A DNA stretch of 64,000 bases from Microbacterium enclense (lineage in GTDB: Bacteria; Actinomycetota; Actinomycetes; Actinomycetales; Microbacteriaceae): contig NZ_KQ758467.1 in the NCBI RefSeq assembly GCF_001456955.1, positions 292,662 through 356,661 of the forward strand. Direction: 5' to 3'. Shown here one piece after another: positions 17,835-25,836 of this stretch. The notes beneath the pieces are model-generated. The model worked only from the letters and a program-made list of their open reading frames with translations, did no database searches and was not told where the DNA came from. The first letter of the stretch is position 1; each line of letters begins with the position of its first letter. Position numbers and translations under genes: made by a program.

Positions 17835-19541
17835 TCACCGACCGGCGAAGTAGTGCGCTCGCACCTGGGCGGCGGTGAGGGCCGACGTGAAGATGGCGGC
17901 GTACTGGATGCGACCGGTGAAGTGGTCGGGGCCGTTGTAGTCGGATACGCCGATGTTGCGCCCGTTCGTCCAGTAGGTGAGTCGACCGCACCCGATCTTC
18001 CAGGTGCCGGTGTAGTTCTGGCCTGTCGTGTAGCCGGTCCGCGAGTCCACGAGTTCTCCGTCGACGTACAACGCCATTCCGCCGCTCGACAGAGTCGCGA
18101 CGACGTGGTGCCACGCGCCGTCGGCATAGTCGGACCCGGCGGGGCTCGCGACCGTCACGCTGGTCCCCGGGAAGACGCCGAACACGACCCGTCCCGCGGC
18201 GTCGAGATAGACCAATCGATCCCACCGGCCCTCGGACGACCAGGATGCGCCGTCGCCGAACCCGATGATGCGGCCATTGCTGGTGGAGGACGTCTGGAAC
18301 CACGCCTCGAGGGAGAACGTGTTCGGATTCCTCTGCGAGCCGGCGACGTAGACGCACTGGGAACCGTCGAAGGTGACCGACGCCTTCGGAGTGTCGCGCA
18401 CGCAGCCCACGCTGCTCGTCGTCGTCCGGGGCTTCTCGAAGACTCCGGTGCGTCCGTTCCCCGAGAAATCGGCCTCGGTGAGGCTACCGGTGCCGGACAG
18501 GGCGAACGCCGCCCACGTCGACGGCGCCCCGACCGCGGCTTCGGCCAGTCGGCAGGAGAAGAAGGGGTTGGTCCCCGCGGTGTCGGTGCCGTTGCGGATG
18601 CTCGCGGCGAAGGCCGACATCGACGTCGAGACGGTGACGAGAACGACCACGGCGAGCACCGTGAGGGCGGACAGGGGCAGCACCACGCGACCCGCGCGGC
18701 GGTCGGGACGCGGACGCAGACCGGTCGTCGACAGCATGTCGGGAGGGCGCACGAGCAGCGCGACCAGGAACGGGAGAAGACAGACCGCGACCAGCAGCAG
18801 TCGCACCGGCCACGAAGGATCGGGGGTCGGCGCCAGAGTGTATGCGCCGTTGGCCAAGCGGGTGGTCGTGAGCACGGCGGCATCCTGTCCGCTCCCGAGC
18901 CGCGTCGTATCGGCTATCAGGGGGAGGATCCCGGTGTTAACGACGTGCATCACCACGCCGTCGCCGCTCTCGGCTGGCCGCCAATCGAGCAGGCGCACGT
19001 TGAACCACGGTCTCAGGATGAGCGATATCAGCGTCGTGGAGAGCGACCACCCCAGCAGGCGAACACTCCATACCCACGGTTGCGCCCGACGAAGGGAGGA
19101 CACCGCCTCCGTGATGATCGCTCCCACCAGCAACCACGGAGCCGCAGTGAGCGCGAAACCCCATCCCGGAGCGATCGCGACGGCGCGGCCGAGGATGGCG
19201 TCGGGGGAGAGGGACCACCCGTCGGGCGAGCCGTTCAGGTCGCCCTTCGTCGTGAAGGTGCTGCCCGAGCTCCCGACGAGCCGGTGCGTGATCGTTCGAT
19301 CATCGATGGTGAAGGTGACGATGTCGCCGATGTCGTACCGCGATTGCGCGTGCGCGACGATCAGGGAACCCACCGGTGCGGTCTGGCCCATGCTGGGCGT
19401 CTGGATGGCGAAGAGTCGCACGCCCAGCACGGAGAAGGCCGCGGCGATCGCGACGGCCACGAGAGCTGTCGCGATCGCCGCGGTGAAGAGAGCGTGACGA
19501 GCGCGCGCGCGGAGAACCGGTGCGGGGGCGTCGCCGCTCAC
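17835..19541 (-). CDS. SipW-type signal peptidase I fused to a LamG domain
   Basis: A 568-residue fusion. Residues 18-42 form a transmembrane helix, then comes an ER/SipW-type (S26B) signal peptidase: TPSM with Ser50, THRL with His86 in place of the usual Lys, and TKGDLNG at 98-104. Further helices follow (about 127-148, 158-178, 247-264, 287-306). Residues 308-323 (MSAFAASIRNGTDTAG) mimic the cleavage region of SipW substrates. The rest (about 385-568) is a LamG/concanavalin-like domain (LEAWFQTSS, GAWHHVVATL, LYVDGELVDS) containing Cys. The start is the GTG at 19541, 16 bases after the TasA-like gene's stop, so the two form an operon. Such a peptidase-LamG fusion is unusual; the extracellular domain could be self-released. 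Confidence 0.85.
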   Translation of the reverse strand: MSGDAPAPVLRARARHALFTAAIATALVAVAIAAAFSVLGVRLFAIQTPSMGQTAPVGSLIVAHAQSRYDIGDIVTFTIDDRTITHRLVGSSGSTFTTKGDLNGSPDGWSLSPDAILGRAVAIAPGWGFALTAAPWLLVGAIITEAVSSLRRAQPWVWSVRLLGWSLSTTLISLILRPWFNVRLLDWRPAESGDGVVMHVVNTGILPLIADTTRLGSGQDAAVLTTTRLANGAYTLAPTPDPSWPVRLLLVAVCLLPFLVALLVRPPDMLSTTGLRPRPDRRAGRVVLPLSALTVLAVVVLVTVSTSMSAFAASIRNGTDTAGTNPFFSCRLAEAAVGAPSTWAAFALSGTGSLTEADFSGNGRTGVFEKPRTTTSSVGCVRDTPKASVTFDGSQCVYVAGSQRNPNTFSLEAWFQTSSTSNGRIIGFGDGASWSSEGRWDRLVYLDAAGRVVFGVFPGTSVTVASPAGSDYADGAWHHVVATLSSGGMALYVDGELVDSRTGYTTGQNYTGTWKIGCGRLTYWTNGRNIGVSDYNGPDHFTGRIQYAAIFTSALTAAQVRAHYFAGR

Positions 19542-19557
19542 GTCGAGGAACGTCGGC

Positions 19558-20205
19558 TCAGGAGCCGGCGCTGGAGTTCCAGGTCAGCGGCTGCGAGACC
19601 TGAAGCCCGGCGTAGGCGTTGCCGAGTCCGGACGGCAGAGTCACGGCGAACGAGAAAGGGACTGTGGCGCTCGGGGCGACGGACGTCGTTCCGAGCTTCG
19701 AGAGGATGTCGACGCCCGAGGCGAAGGCGGAAAGACTGCCGGAGTAGATCGTCGTCGAACCCGATGTGACGACGAGCGTCATCTTGGAGCACATGTCAGT
19801 CGCGGACCCGGTGGGGGTGCCGTTCGCGGACTGCGTGCATGATCCCGGGGTCAGGGTGAACGAACTCGCGCTGGCCGTGCCGATGTTCTTGATGGAGATG
19901 CTCGTGGTGACGGTCTGCCCGGGTGTCATGGTGAGCGTTCCGCCGTACTTGTTGATCGTGGAGCACGTGGCGCTGTTGCTGCTGCTGTCGGTGCTCTCGC
20001 AGATGACGTTGCCCGTGCTGTCGCTCTCTTGCATGATGAGCGTTCCGCTGCCGGCGGTGTTCACGGTGTTCTCGATCCGTGCGGTGAAGGCCGCGACGGT
20101 GGGTGAGAGGCCCAGGGCGAGGATGAGCGAGGCCACGCTCCCCGCCAGCACGACGGGCAGGGCGAGTCGACGACGACGCGACGGCGGAGGGGACTGGGTG
20201 GACAC
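19558..20205 (-). CDS. SipW-dependent TasA/camelysin-like secreted protein
   Basis: A 215-residue exported protein. A basic start and hydrophobic helix (about 15-38) lead into AAFTARIENTVNTAGSGTL, which matches the SipW-dependent signal/cleavage pattern of TasA and camelysin relatives. The mature part is Ser/Thr/Gly-rich and beta-stranded with a few Cys, as in fibre-forming or surface proteins. The start is GTG with GAGGAG upstream. It is the first gene of a two-gene operon with the SipW-LamG peptidase, which very probably processes it. The family is known; the exact role here is inferred. Confidence 0.82.
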   Translation of the reverse strand: MSTQSPPPSRRRRLALPVVLAGSVASLILALGLSPTVAAFTARIENTVNTAGSGTLIMQESDSTGNVICESTDSSSNSATCSTINKYGGTLTMTPGQTVTTSISIKNIGTASASSFTLTPGSCTQSANGTPTGSATDMCSKMTLVVTSGSTTIYSGSLSAFASGVDILSKLGTTSVAPSATVPFSFAVTLPSGLGNAYAGLQVSQPLTWNSSAGS

Positions 20206-24545: not shown

Positions 24546-24857
24546 TCAGGAGCCTTCGGCGGCGGGTTCGTCGACGAGGAGCAGTCCGCCCGACGAGTTG
24601 GCCGAGTTCGCCAGTGCTTCGATCCACGCGCGGCTGAGCAGGGCGGGTTCGGGCTCGTCGAAGACGAAGCGCAGGGGAATGGACGGGTGCAGCCAGACCG
24701 TGCTGCGTCCCACCTCCTGGCCGGGGCCGTGCGTCCACGACAGGGTGAAGCTCTCGCCGCGGCGCAGCTTGGTGGCGATGACGACCTTGACGTGCGCCAG
24801 CGCCCGGTCTTCGATGTCGATCGGCGTCGCGACGTCGCCGTAGTAAAGCGTTCCCAC
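24546..24857 (-). CDS. DUF7882 family protein (copy 1 of 3)
   Basis: A 103-residue protein starting MGTLYYGD, with DIEDRALAHVKVVIATKLRRGESF, RSTVWLHPSIPLRFVF and an acidic Ser/Gly-rich tail. This family is widespread in Microbacteriaceae and often mislabelled as DNA ligase; no ligase motif is present. The start is GTG at 24857; TAACGT ends 6 bases upstream, so it is probably leaderless. Copies 2 and 3 lie at 24972 and 25393 in alternating orientation. Copy 1 and copy 3 are closest to each other. Function unknown. Confidence 0.85.
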   Translation of the reverse strand: MGTLYYGDVATPIDIEDRALAHVKVVIATKLRRGESFTLSWTHGPGQEVGRSTVWLHPSIPLRFVFDEPEPALLSRAWIEALANSANSSGGLLLVDEPAAEGS

Positions 24858-24971
24858 ACCGGCACGTTAGTCGCGCTCCGCGAGACGTGCTCGAGGGGTT
24901 GATTCGAGTGGGCCGACGTGGCATCTCGGAAAGCGGATGACGTCGTGCGTTCCTCGACTAGGCTCGTCGGT

Positions 24972-25289
24972 ATGGGCAGATTCATCTACGACACCGTGGC
25001 CAATGCGGTCGACATCGATGACCGCACGTTGGCGCACCTGCGCATCGTCGTGATGAACAAGCTGCGCCGCTCGGAGTCGTTCATGTTCGACGTCGAGGTG
25101 GGCGACGGCAGCGGTCGCCGCAGCTTCTGGATGCACCCGTCGGTGCCCATCCAGTTCCACTTCTACGGCAGCCGCCAGCCGCGCATCAACCGTGTCTGGG
25201 TCGAAGACCTCATGCTGGCCGCCTCGGGACCGAACGGCCTCGCCATCACGCCCGAGCCCAGCGAGGACGCGCACGTCGAAGAGGGCTGA
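24972..25289 (+). CDS. DUF7882 family protein (copy 2 of 3)
   Basis: A 105-residue divergent paralogue of the neighbours at 24546 and 25393: MGRFIYDTVANAVDIDDRTLAHLRIVVMNKLRRSESF, RRSFWMHPSVPIQFHF. It keeps the shared DDR-LAHL, KLRR-ESF and WMHPS-P core but differs in the rest. TAGGCT ends 7 bases before the ATG. It is divergent from copy 1, with 114 bases between starts. Function unknown. Confidence 0.85.
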   Translation: MGRFIYDTVANAVDIDDRTLAHLRIVVMNKLRRSESFMFDVEVGDGSGRRSFWMHPSVPIQFHFYGSRQPRINRVWVEDLMLAASGPNGLAITPEPSEDAHVEEG

Positions 25290-25392: not shown

Positions 25393-25719
25393 TCAGCTCG
25401 TGGGCGAGTGCTCCGCCGGGGTCATGTCCTCGGGGACCAGCATGATGCCGCCCGACGAGTTGGCGGAGTCGGCCAGGCGCTCGATCCACTCACGGCTCAG
25501 CGTGGCGGGTTCGGCCTCGTCGAAGACGAAACGCAGCGGGATCGCGGGGTGCAGCCACAGCGTGCTGCGGCCGCGCTCTTCGTCGTCGCGATGGCGCCAC
25601 GACAGCGTGAAGCTCTCGCCTCGACGGAGCTTGGTCGAGATCACGACCTTCAGATGAGCCAGGGCTCGGTCTTCGATGTGGACGGTCGTGCCGCTTCCGC
25701 CGTAGTGAATGGTCCCCAT
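25393..25719 (-). CDS. DUF7882 family protein (copy 3 of 3)
   Basis: A 108-residue paralogue: MGTIHYGGSGTTVHIEDRALAHLKVVISTKLRRGESF, RSTLWLHPAIPLRFVF, NSSGGIMLVPED. It is much closer to copy 1 than to copy 2, suggesting that copy 1 and copy 3 duplicated later. The open frame extends upstream to 25818, but the ATG at 25719 matches the other copies and has TATCGT 6 bases upstream. Function unknown. Confidence 0.85.
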   Translation of the reverse strand: MGTIHYGGSGTTVHIEDRALAHLKVVISTKLRRGESFTLSWRHRDDEERGRSTLWLHPAIPLRFVFDEAEPATLSREWIERLADSANSSGGIMLVPEDMTPAEHSPTS

Positions 25720-25767
25720 ACGGCCACGATACGCCAGTGGCAGCGGCGACGATGTGGGTGATCCGGA

Positions 25768-25808
25768 GATGTCAAGACCGCCCGTCTGCGAGGCGGTCGT
25801 TTGACATC
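25768..25808. repeat. Long inverted repeat upstream of a small gene
   Basis: GATGTCAAGACCGCC (25768-25782) pairs with GGCGGTC-GT-TTGACATC (25792-25808), a 15-base stem with a 2-base bulge and a 9-base loop. TTGACA occurs on both arms. It could be a terminator between divergent units or a protein-binding operator for the gene at 25837. Confidence 0.6.
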
Positions 25809-25836
25809 GTTGACTCATCTACGGAAGGAGAGCGCC

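Follow-up and report, generated by a model that had tools for sequence, protein, structure and literature searches.

A conserved fusion of an S26B-type signal peptidase and a LamG domain with a predicted cleavage site, encoded next to a TasA-like gene in Microbacterium enclense

Signal peptidases normally act in trans on many proteins. At this locus of Microbacterium enclense a peptidase and a site of the substrate type are encoded in one polypeptide, next to a gene for a TasA-like protein. The window, i.e. the whole stretch of 64,000 nucleotides that was analysed, comes from a genome of 3.67 Mb in 15 contigs. Analysis of the minus strand indicated that positions 17835..19541 form a single open frame of 568 codons with zero internal stops, coding for a 568 aa fusion of an S26B peptidase, membrane helices, a signal-peptide-like segment and a LamG domain; a frameshift or two separate genes were looked for and not seen, and the fusion put forward in the original prediction is one intact gene. 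Sixteen bases upstream on the same strand lies the gene of the TasA-like (camelysin-like) exported protein of 215 aa with a predicted signal peptide at residues 1-38 (19558..20205, read from 20205 to 19558). Ser50, His86, the TKGD motif (residues 98-101) and the segment MSAFAASIRNGTDTAG (residues 308-323) were all located at the positions assigned to them. Since split relatives exist, an artefact of sequencing or gene calling that ran two genes together was considered; it is refuted by independent assemblies and can practically be discounted, as the genome itself carries two fusion copies and fusions were found in 31 loci of named records, with which the 120 aligned fusion sequences described below overlap.

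The S26B-type peptidase domain covers residues 40-126 (19164..19424, minus strand), with the catalytic codons of Ser50 at 19394-19392, His86 at 19286-19284, Asp101 at 19241-19239 and Asp107 at 19223-19221, all on the minus strand. Alignment of 120 fusion sequences (the window protein and P0004-P0122; P0003, identical to the window protein, was left out) revealed that Ser50 was kept in 113/113 covering rows and His86, Asp101 and Asp107 in 117/117, and that the set Ser50-His86-Asp107 was complete in 113 of the 120 fusions while the other seven were gapped at the N-terminal side. The catalytic residues are thus of the Ser-His(-Asp) and not of the Ser-Lys kind. A profile of the fusion family found human SEC11A (E 1.4e-6) and SEC11C (E 5e-6), both part of the signal peptidase complex, with the catalytic blocks aligned. 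The human proteins (7p2p, 7p2q) share the blocks SM, HR and GD..N..D but are eukaryotic and carry no fused substrate. The single sequence missed the curated peptidase cut-offs, scoring 20.5 bits against 22.9 for Pfam S26 and 39.6 against 51.85 for TIGR02228, and did not reach the SipW model NF046067 (28.4 against 190 bits). Because of these missed cut-offs the peptidase was not filed as a SipW equivalog, and the predicted S26B type is retained on the strength of the Ser-His-Asp residues and the SEC11A profile match, although not of the curated S26 and SipW models.

Several membrane helices had been expected, and the AF2 model of the fusion (pLDDT 89.4, pTM 0.56) predicts five long ones, at residues 10-39, 127-148, 151-176, 244-263 and 281-303, helices 3 and 4 being separated by a beta-rich piece, with the LamG domain at the C-terminal end; at this pTM, and with pLDDT below 50 at the linker 315-323, the geometry of the site relative to the active site is unusable. 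The predicted cytoplasmic loops have a median Lys/Arg share of 0.20-0.27 (the first loop being covered by only 45 rows), and the predicted outer parts are poor in these residues (0.06-0.08). From this positive-inside distribution the peptidase, the middle domain, the site and the LamG domain are therefore all predicted to lie outside. The beta-rich middle domain, delimited by AF2 and alignment at residues 182-236 (18834..18998, minus strand) and predicted to be extracytoplasmic, is common to fused and split members of this first family, with Gly204 and Gly218 invariant, and was not detected in a second S26B-LamG family described below or in the outgroup peptidases. It is followed, beyond helix 4, by an arginine-rich loop of residues 264-285 (18687..18752, minus strand), which is predicted to be cytoplasmic from its Lys/Arg content, is poorly conserved as judged by entropy, and would be the point where the peptidase and the product of a former LamG gene were joined. 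The last helix, residues 281-303 (18633..18701, minus strand), is the counterpart of the hydrophobic stretch in the signal peptide of the LamG protein.

The LamG concanavalin-like domain, residues 330-568 (17838..18554, minus strand), was delimited by Pfam, fold and alignment; Laminin_G_3 (PF13385) matched at residues 393-560 with 70.2 bits (cut-off 27.6), and the four LamG cysteines 330, 380, 396 and 518 are invariant. Domain 4 of the arabinanase AbnA (5hon) is similar in fold, but fold alone is not evidence of sugar binding, and binding of glycans or surfaces by the LamG domain is a possible function. The fold list also included many rows of toxin-binding domains; since these reflect the common concanavalin-like fold, a toxin-type function was set aside.

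The substrate-type segment between the last helix and the LamG domain was identified by alignment at residues 307-324 (SMSAFAASIRNGTDTAGT; 18570..18623, minus strand), and the predicted bond Ser309|Ala310 falls between window bases 18615 and 18614. Counted with no motif filter, residues 307 (-3) and 309 (-1) were A, G, S or T in 120/120 fusions while residue 308 (-2) varied, which answers the question of conservation raised for this segment. Residue 310 was small in 119/120, and residue 311 (+2) was F or Y in 94/120 and Leu in 19 (F, Y or W in 95/120). The window protein has Ser at P1, as have 7/120 of the alignment. An alternative cut at 312|313 was less well kept, residue 312 being small in 106/120. 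Of the columns filled in 100 rows or more, just 28 were small throughout, 307 and 309 among them; the other 26 comprised 18 glycine positions and several more flanking Ser50. Among 11 regions compared by mean column entropy the loop 264-285 was highest (2.79 bits), and the pre-site helix and the first helix reached 2.52 and 2.51 bits versus 1.73 bits for the site. Residues 264-311 thus present the features of a SipW-type substrate, i.e. a positive n-region, a hydrophobic stretch, small residues at -3 and -1 and an aromatic residue at +2. The last of these is described as a feature of TasA that E. coli LepB handles poorly and the ER-type SipW handles (excerpt of PMC10269814). In TasA the donor strand starts at residue 28 with Phe29 second (excerpt of PMC9674648), and this start agrees with cleavage ahead of Ala28 and, at the aligned position of the fusion, ahead of Ala310; the free -2 residue agrees with it as well.

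To place the fusion among its relatives, proteins with S26B and LamG domains were searched for, as had been suggested, and 189 matches were found at E <= 1e-3 by a search that scores only candidates sharing most words; the best 120 of the 189 all carried PF13385 and were mostly 540-620 aa long. The nearest named relatives belong to Microbacterium. Loss of the LamG domain was examined in the closest relatives, and among these best 120 the fusion was kept. Other genera carry LamG as a separate overlapping gene that opens with the same segment, which accounts for the segment and does not speak against the prediction. One row, P0113 (576 aa, 36% identical), represents 805 member sequences, far above the other rows listed. 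Of 78 loci from named genomes 77 had the peptidase, 31 as fusions and 44 in split form, with L013 broken and L048 running off its contig. L013 is a frame-broken fusion of Microbacterium sp. SORGH_AS_1204, and an intact copy is present elsewhere in that genome (L005).

In all split loci (44/44) the stop of the peptidase gene and the start of the LamG gene share a 4-base RTGA overlap, as they do in 9/9 further split loci, at least one of which is from a species already counted (the overlap was counted without L092-L094); the 53/53 overlapping split operons include those of Curtobacterium, Frondihabitans, Subtercola, Clavibacter and others. The separate LamG proteins open with an N-terminal signal peptide that carries the same motif, for example ...APTRS-AFSATVANGGNTAATAPYFTC in L034. 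The split alignment, from which L013 (broken frame) and L071 (a longer LamG frame whose N-terminus carries the motif) were left out, has a small residue at both -3 and -1 in 43/43 rows, and F or Y at +2 in the same 43. This count is anchored in the alignment and free of a motif filter, because motif-anchored counts for the split LamG and TasA-like rows are circular at -3, -1 and +1. The segment in the fusion is explained by these split genes, which start with the same segment as their signal peptide; the original view of it as a mimic of SipW substrates is therefore right as to the substrate-type pattern, which is kept, but the segment is not mere mimicry, since it corresponds to the LamG protein's own signal peptide. 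Since the separate LamG protein has its own signal peptide, the fusion joins the enzyme to the protein that it would process. Enzyme and substrate-type site had been proposed to share one polypeptide next to the TasA-like gene, and this is borne out at the level of sequence, with enzyme residues and site conserved across the family.

A second S26B-LamG fusion family was found in six loci of five genomes of the bacterial family (L102-L104, L117-L119). It has a different S26B peptidase, is devoid of the middle domain and formed a clade apart from the first (SH-aLRT 100, six rows, long branch). A search from one member gave 243 matches, and among the best 120 of these the Ser-His-Asp residues were complete in 116/120 and small -3 and -1 residues with an aromatic +2 were present in 110/120, with ten exceptions. 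A TasA-type frame lies upstream of all six loci; four of these frames match the first-family TasA-like profile weakly (15-19 bits), and the remaining two were found by the N-terminal motif only. L127, from an actinobacterium that is more distantly related, has consecutive frames for a TasA-like protein, a peptidase and LamG (31, 70 and 30 bits).

These observations bear on two other readings of the segment. The last helix is predicted to be long and hydrophobic and could stay uncut as an anchor; LamG, still tied to the peptidase, would then keep the enzyme in place at the cell wall or at a glycan, and the segment would be a leftover. A leftover should drift, yet -3 and -1 are small in 120/120 fusions beside a helix and a loop that are among the least conserved regions, the second fusion family keeps the same site pattern, and in sister genera the segment is an N-terminal signal peptide. 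Because -3 and -1 do not drift while the pre-site helix and the loop do, the leftover reading is disfavoured, and two peptidase families each with a LamG partner and a kept site likewise argue against a relic; we regard uncut anchoring as improbable. Still less credit is given to the view that the cut in the segment is made by a different cellular peptidase, the fused one serving the TasA-like protein only or being regulatory. Against this very unlikely arrangement stand the match of the segment to the TasA-like protein's own site, the poor handling of an aromatic +2 by the LepB type (excerpt of PMC10269814) and the catalytic residues, invariant in the fusion family where covered.

The distribution of fused and split forms was surveyed in three genome samples, in which at most 14 (genus), 9 (family) and 8 (phylum) candidates per genome were scored at strict E-values and the counts are therefore lower bounds. 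Full-length fusions were present in at least four of 99 genomes of the genus, including that of the window; G083, a further genome of this sample, had a split pair. Among the matches listed for 150 genomes of the family, the first-family fusion was found only in the window's own genome and split pairs in at least 11. In 296 genomes of the phylum (E <= 1e-20) the peptidase with the middle domain was found only in the window's own genome, and at least 11 others showed the peptidase domain alone (75-87 bits). Another genome of the genus carries a frame (L115, G007:C1:2082829-2083845) in which a TasA-like protein continues after its N-terminal half directly into LamG and the peptidase is missing, the arrangement that a deletion between the two ends of the operon would leave.

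Among the named loci, fusions also occur in Propionibacteriaceae, Sinomonas and Actinomycetospora, and in five records with Saccharibacteria or TM7 in the title. These latter bacteria are ultra-small and known as epibionts of Actinobacteria. The five records (L019, L021, L024, L028 and L032) are mostly metagenome bins, for which mis-binning is possible; their fusions group with those of Propionibacteriaceae and Microbacterium, which suggests transfer between phyla. In the phylogenetic tree one group held 35 fusion rows and a second group every one of the 56 split rows, with moderate support; the fusions L025, L026, L030 and L033 branched at the base of the split group or close to it. The tree was a quick one, made without L083 (part of the fusion of the window itself, cut short) and the duplicates L084, L087 and L088; 39 of 113 inner branches were open, long branches were flagged, and the outgroup, made up of 21 S26B rows that are distant or peptidase-only, did not separate cleanly, as the six second-family rows came to lie within it, so that the direction, fusion or fission, is not settled by it.

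The TasA-like gene adjoins the peptidase in 74 of 77 loci; of the three others, L035 and L055 have a contig edge as their start, and in L032 no such gene is present in the stretch examined. Cleavage of the protein is predicted at Ala38|Ala39 (20091..20092, minus strand) from the motif shared with the fusion family, giving the mature N-terminus AFTARIENTVNTAGSG. Residues -3 and -1 were small in 33/33 aligned rows, and the segment of the fusion matches this site. In the fold comparison the TasA fibre ranked first of the 990 Foldseek-preselected chains that were aligned with the model, which has a predicted jelly-roll fold. A sequence-profile search of the PDB with the TasA-like family found no TasA chain, and the camelysin/Peptidase_M73 model PF12389 had zero matches in the window's genome and none in the Pfam scan. 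The protein is a match to TasA in predicted fold and not in sequence, and is here called TasA-like only.

Comparison of LamG positions +3 to +15 with the mature TasA-like start gave, for the first family, a mean BLOSUM62 score of 30.0 against its own TasA-like proteins (33 hand-picked rows), 10.7 against those of the other family and about 3 after shuffling. The corresponding scores of the second family, where 119/120 database rows and 4/6 TasA-like N-termini were scored, were 14.3, 6.2 and 2-3; its six loci scored 13.2 with their own family, the best shuffle being not much lower at 9.1. Not nearer to their own-family TasA-like protein were 23/119 second-family database rows and 1/6 second-family loci. 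The likeness represents two lineages only, in which counts are not independent. LamG could simply be released and work on its own as a secreted lectin or adhesin, with the common N-terminal motif serving the peptidase as an extended recognition stretch, as LamG and the TasA-like protein presumably meet the same enzyme and each family has its own enzyme and motif. This is a rival to the fibre step only, and we judge it a genuine though rather unlikely alternative: the likeness reaches +15, beyond the P3-P4' residues that are reported to be important when LepB acts on TasA (excerpt of PMC10269814), and the N-terminal stretch in the TasA fibre is a donor strand, which TapA resembles (excerpt of PMC9674648).

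Beside the features that are established from sequence, namely the intact fusion, the Ser-His-Asp residues, the cleavage pattern, the LamG of sister genera as a separate gene and the TasA-like neighbour, we consider it fairly probable that the fusion unites an S26B peptidase with its own likely substrate and that cutting frees a LamG head for the TasA-like fibre. The signal peptide of LamG would survive as the last membrane helix of the fusion, and a cut at Ser309|Ala310, in cis or by a neighbouring copy, would release LamG outside the cell. The same enzyme would also process the TasA-like protein, and the fusion would supply the two, enzyme and substrate, in equal numbers. The freed LamG N-terminus (AFxAxIxN...TAG), resembling the start of the mature TasA-like protein, might act as a donor strand, and LamG would become the cap or head of a TasA-like fibre in the manner of B. 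subtilis TapA, which starts TasA fibres. A bolder version, offered tentatively and with the balance somewhat against it, is that self-cleavage exposes the LamG donor strand right at the fibre-maturing enzyme, that every copy of the enzyme initiates one and only one TasA-like fibre, which bears a sugar-binding head, and that such a single-use starter arose twice in Actinobacteria and occurs in Saccharibacteria as well. Since a single cut at a single bond is predicted, the proposal is directly testable.

Peptidase-fibre operons of such kind are already known from Bacillus. As described in excerpts of PMC9674648 and PMC10151520, the B. subtilis tapA-sipW-tasA operon likewise has a dedicated ER-type peptidase beside a jelly-roll fibre protein with an N-terminal donor strand, a third exported protein, TapA, with a similar N-terminal strand, and overlapping stop and start codons of tapA and sipW, as in the split loci here. 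Here, by contrast, the third protein is LamG, its gene follows that of the peptidase and is fused to it in the window, and the C-terminal domain is LamG; an Ig-type domain is a feature of TapA. The B. cereus sipW-tasA/calY locus is alike in joining SipW with camelysin-type fibre proteins and an exported factor, CapP, but there sipW is a gene of its own, and the term LamG is absent from the main text of PMC13082335.

In the open-access library searched, no paper on a peptidase-LamG fusion turned up, in agreement with the claim that none has been described. The fusion sequences are already in databases, as 'signal peptidase I', 'LamG-like jellyroll fold domain-containing protein', 'LamG domain-containing protein' or 'hypothetical protein', and the arrangement seems undescribed. 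Among the matches listed, the TasA-like fibre protein is named 'hypothetical', 'uncharacterized' and once a TIGR01451-type repeat protein. If true, a conserved enzyme-substrate fusion with a kept site in two families would amount to a self-limiting export enzyme. It would also point to an unnamed TasA-like fibre system in Actinobacteria and Saccharibacteria, with LamG as a candidate fibre starter or tip, the role of TapA in B. subtilis. Many of the Actinobacteria genera concerned are known from plants and soil.

Variations of the gene order were also recorded. An extra separate LamG gene lies directly behind the fusion in L011 (9783-10595), L090 and L120 (2838-3749), and those of L090 and L120 have their own signal-type segment. 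The Propionibacteriaceae loci L017, L020 and L023 carry three TasA-like genes followed by two tandem fusion genes. The second complete unit of TasA-like and peptidase-LamG genes in the M. enclense genome is at C3:260812-263167 (L080, L116), and about 27-53 kb from it, at C3:207935-234057, lie the genes of four giant LamG proteins, whose open frames are 1111-1354 codons long. Within the window, three adjacent short frames on mixed strands (24546-24857, 24918-25289 and 25393-25818) have translations that are alike (MGTLYYGD..., MGRFIYDT... and MGTIHYGG...) and form a small paralogue cluster.
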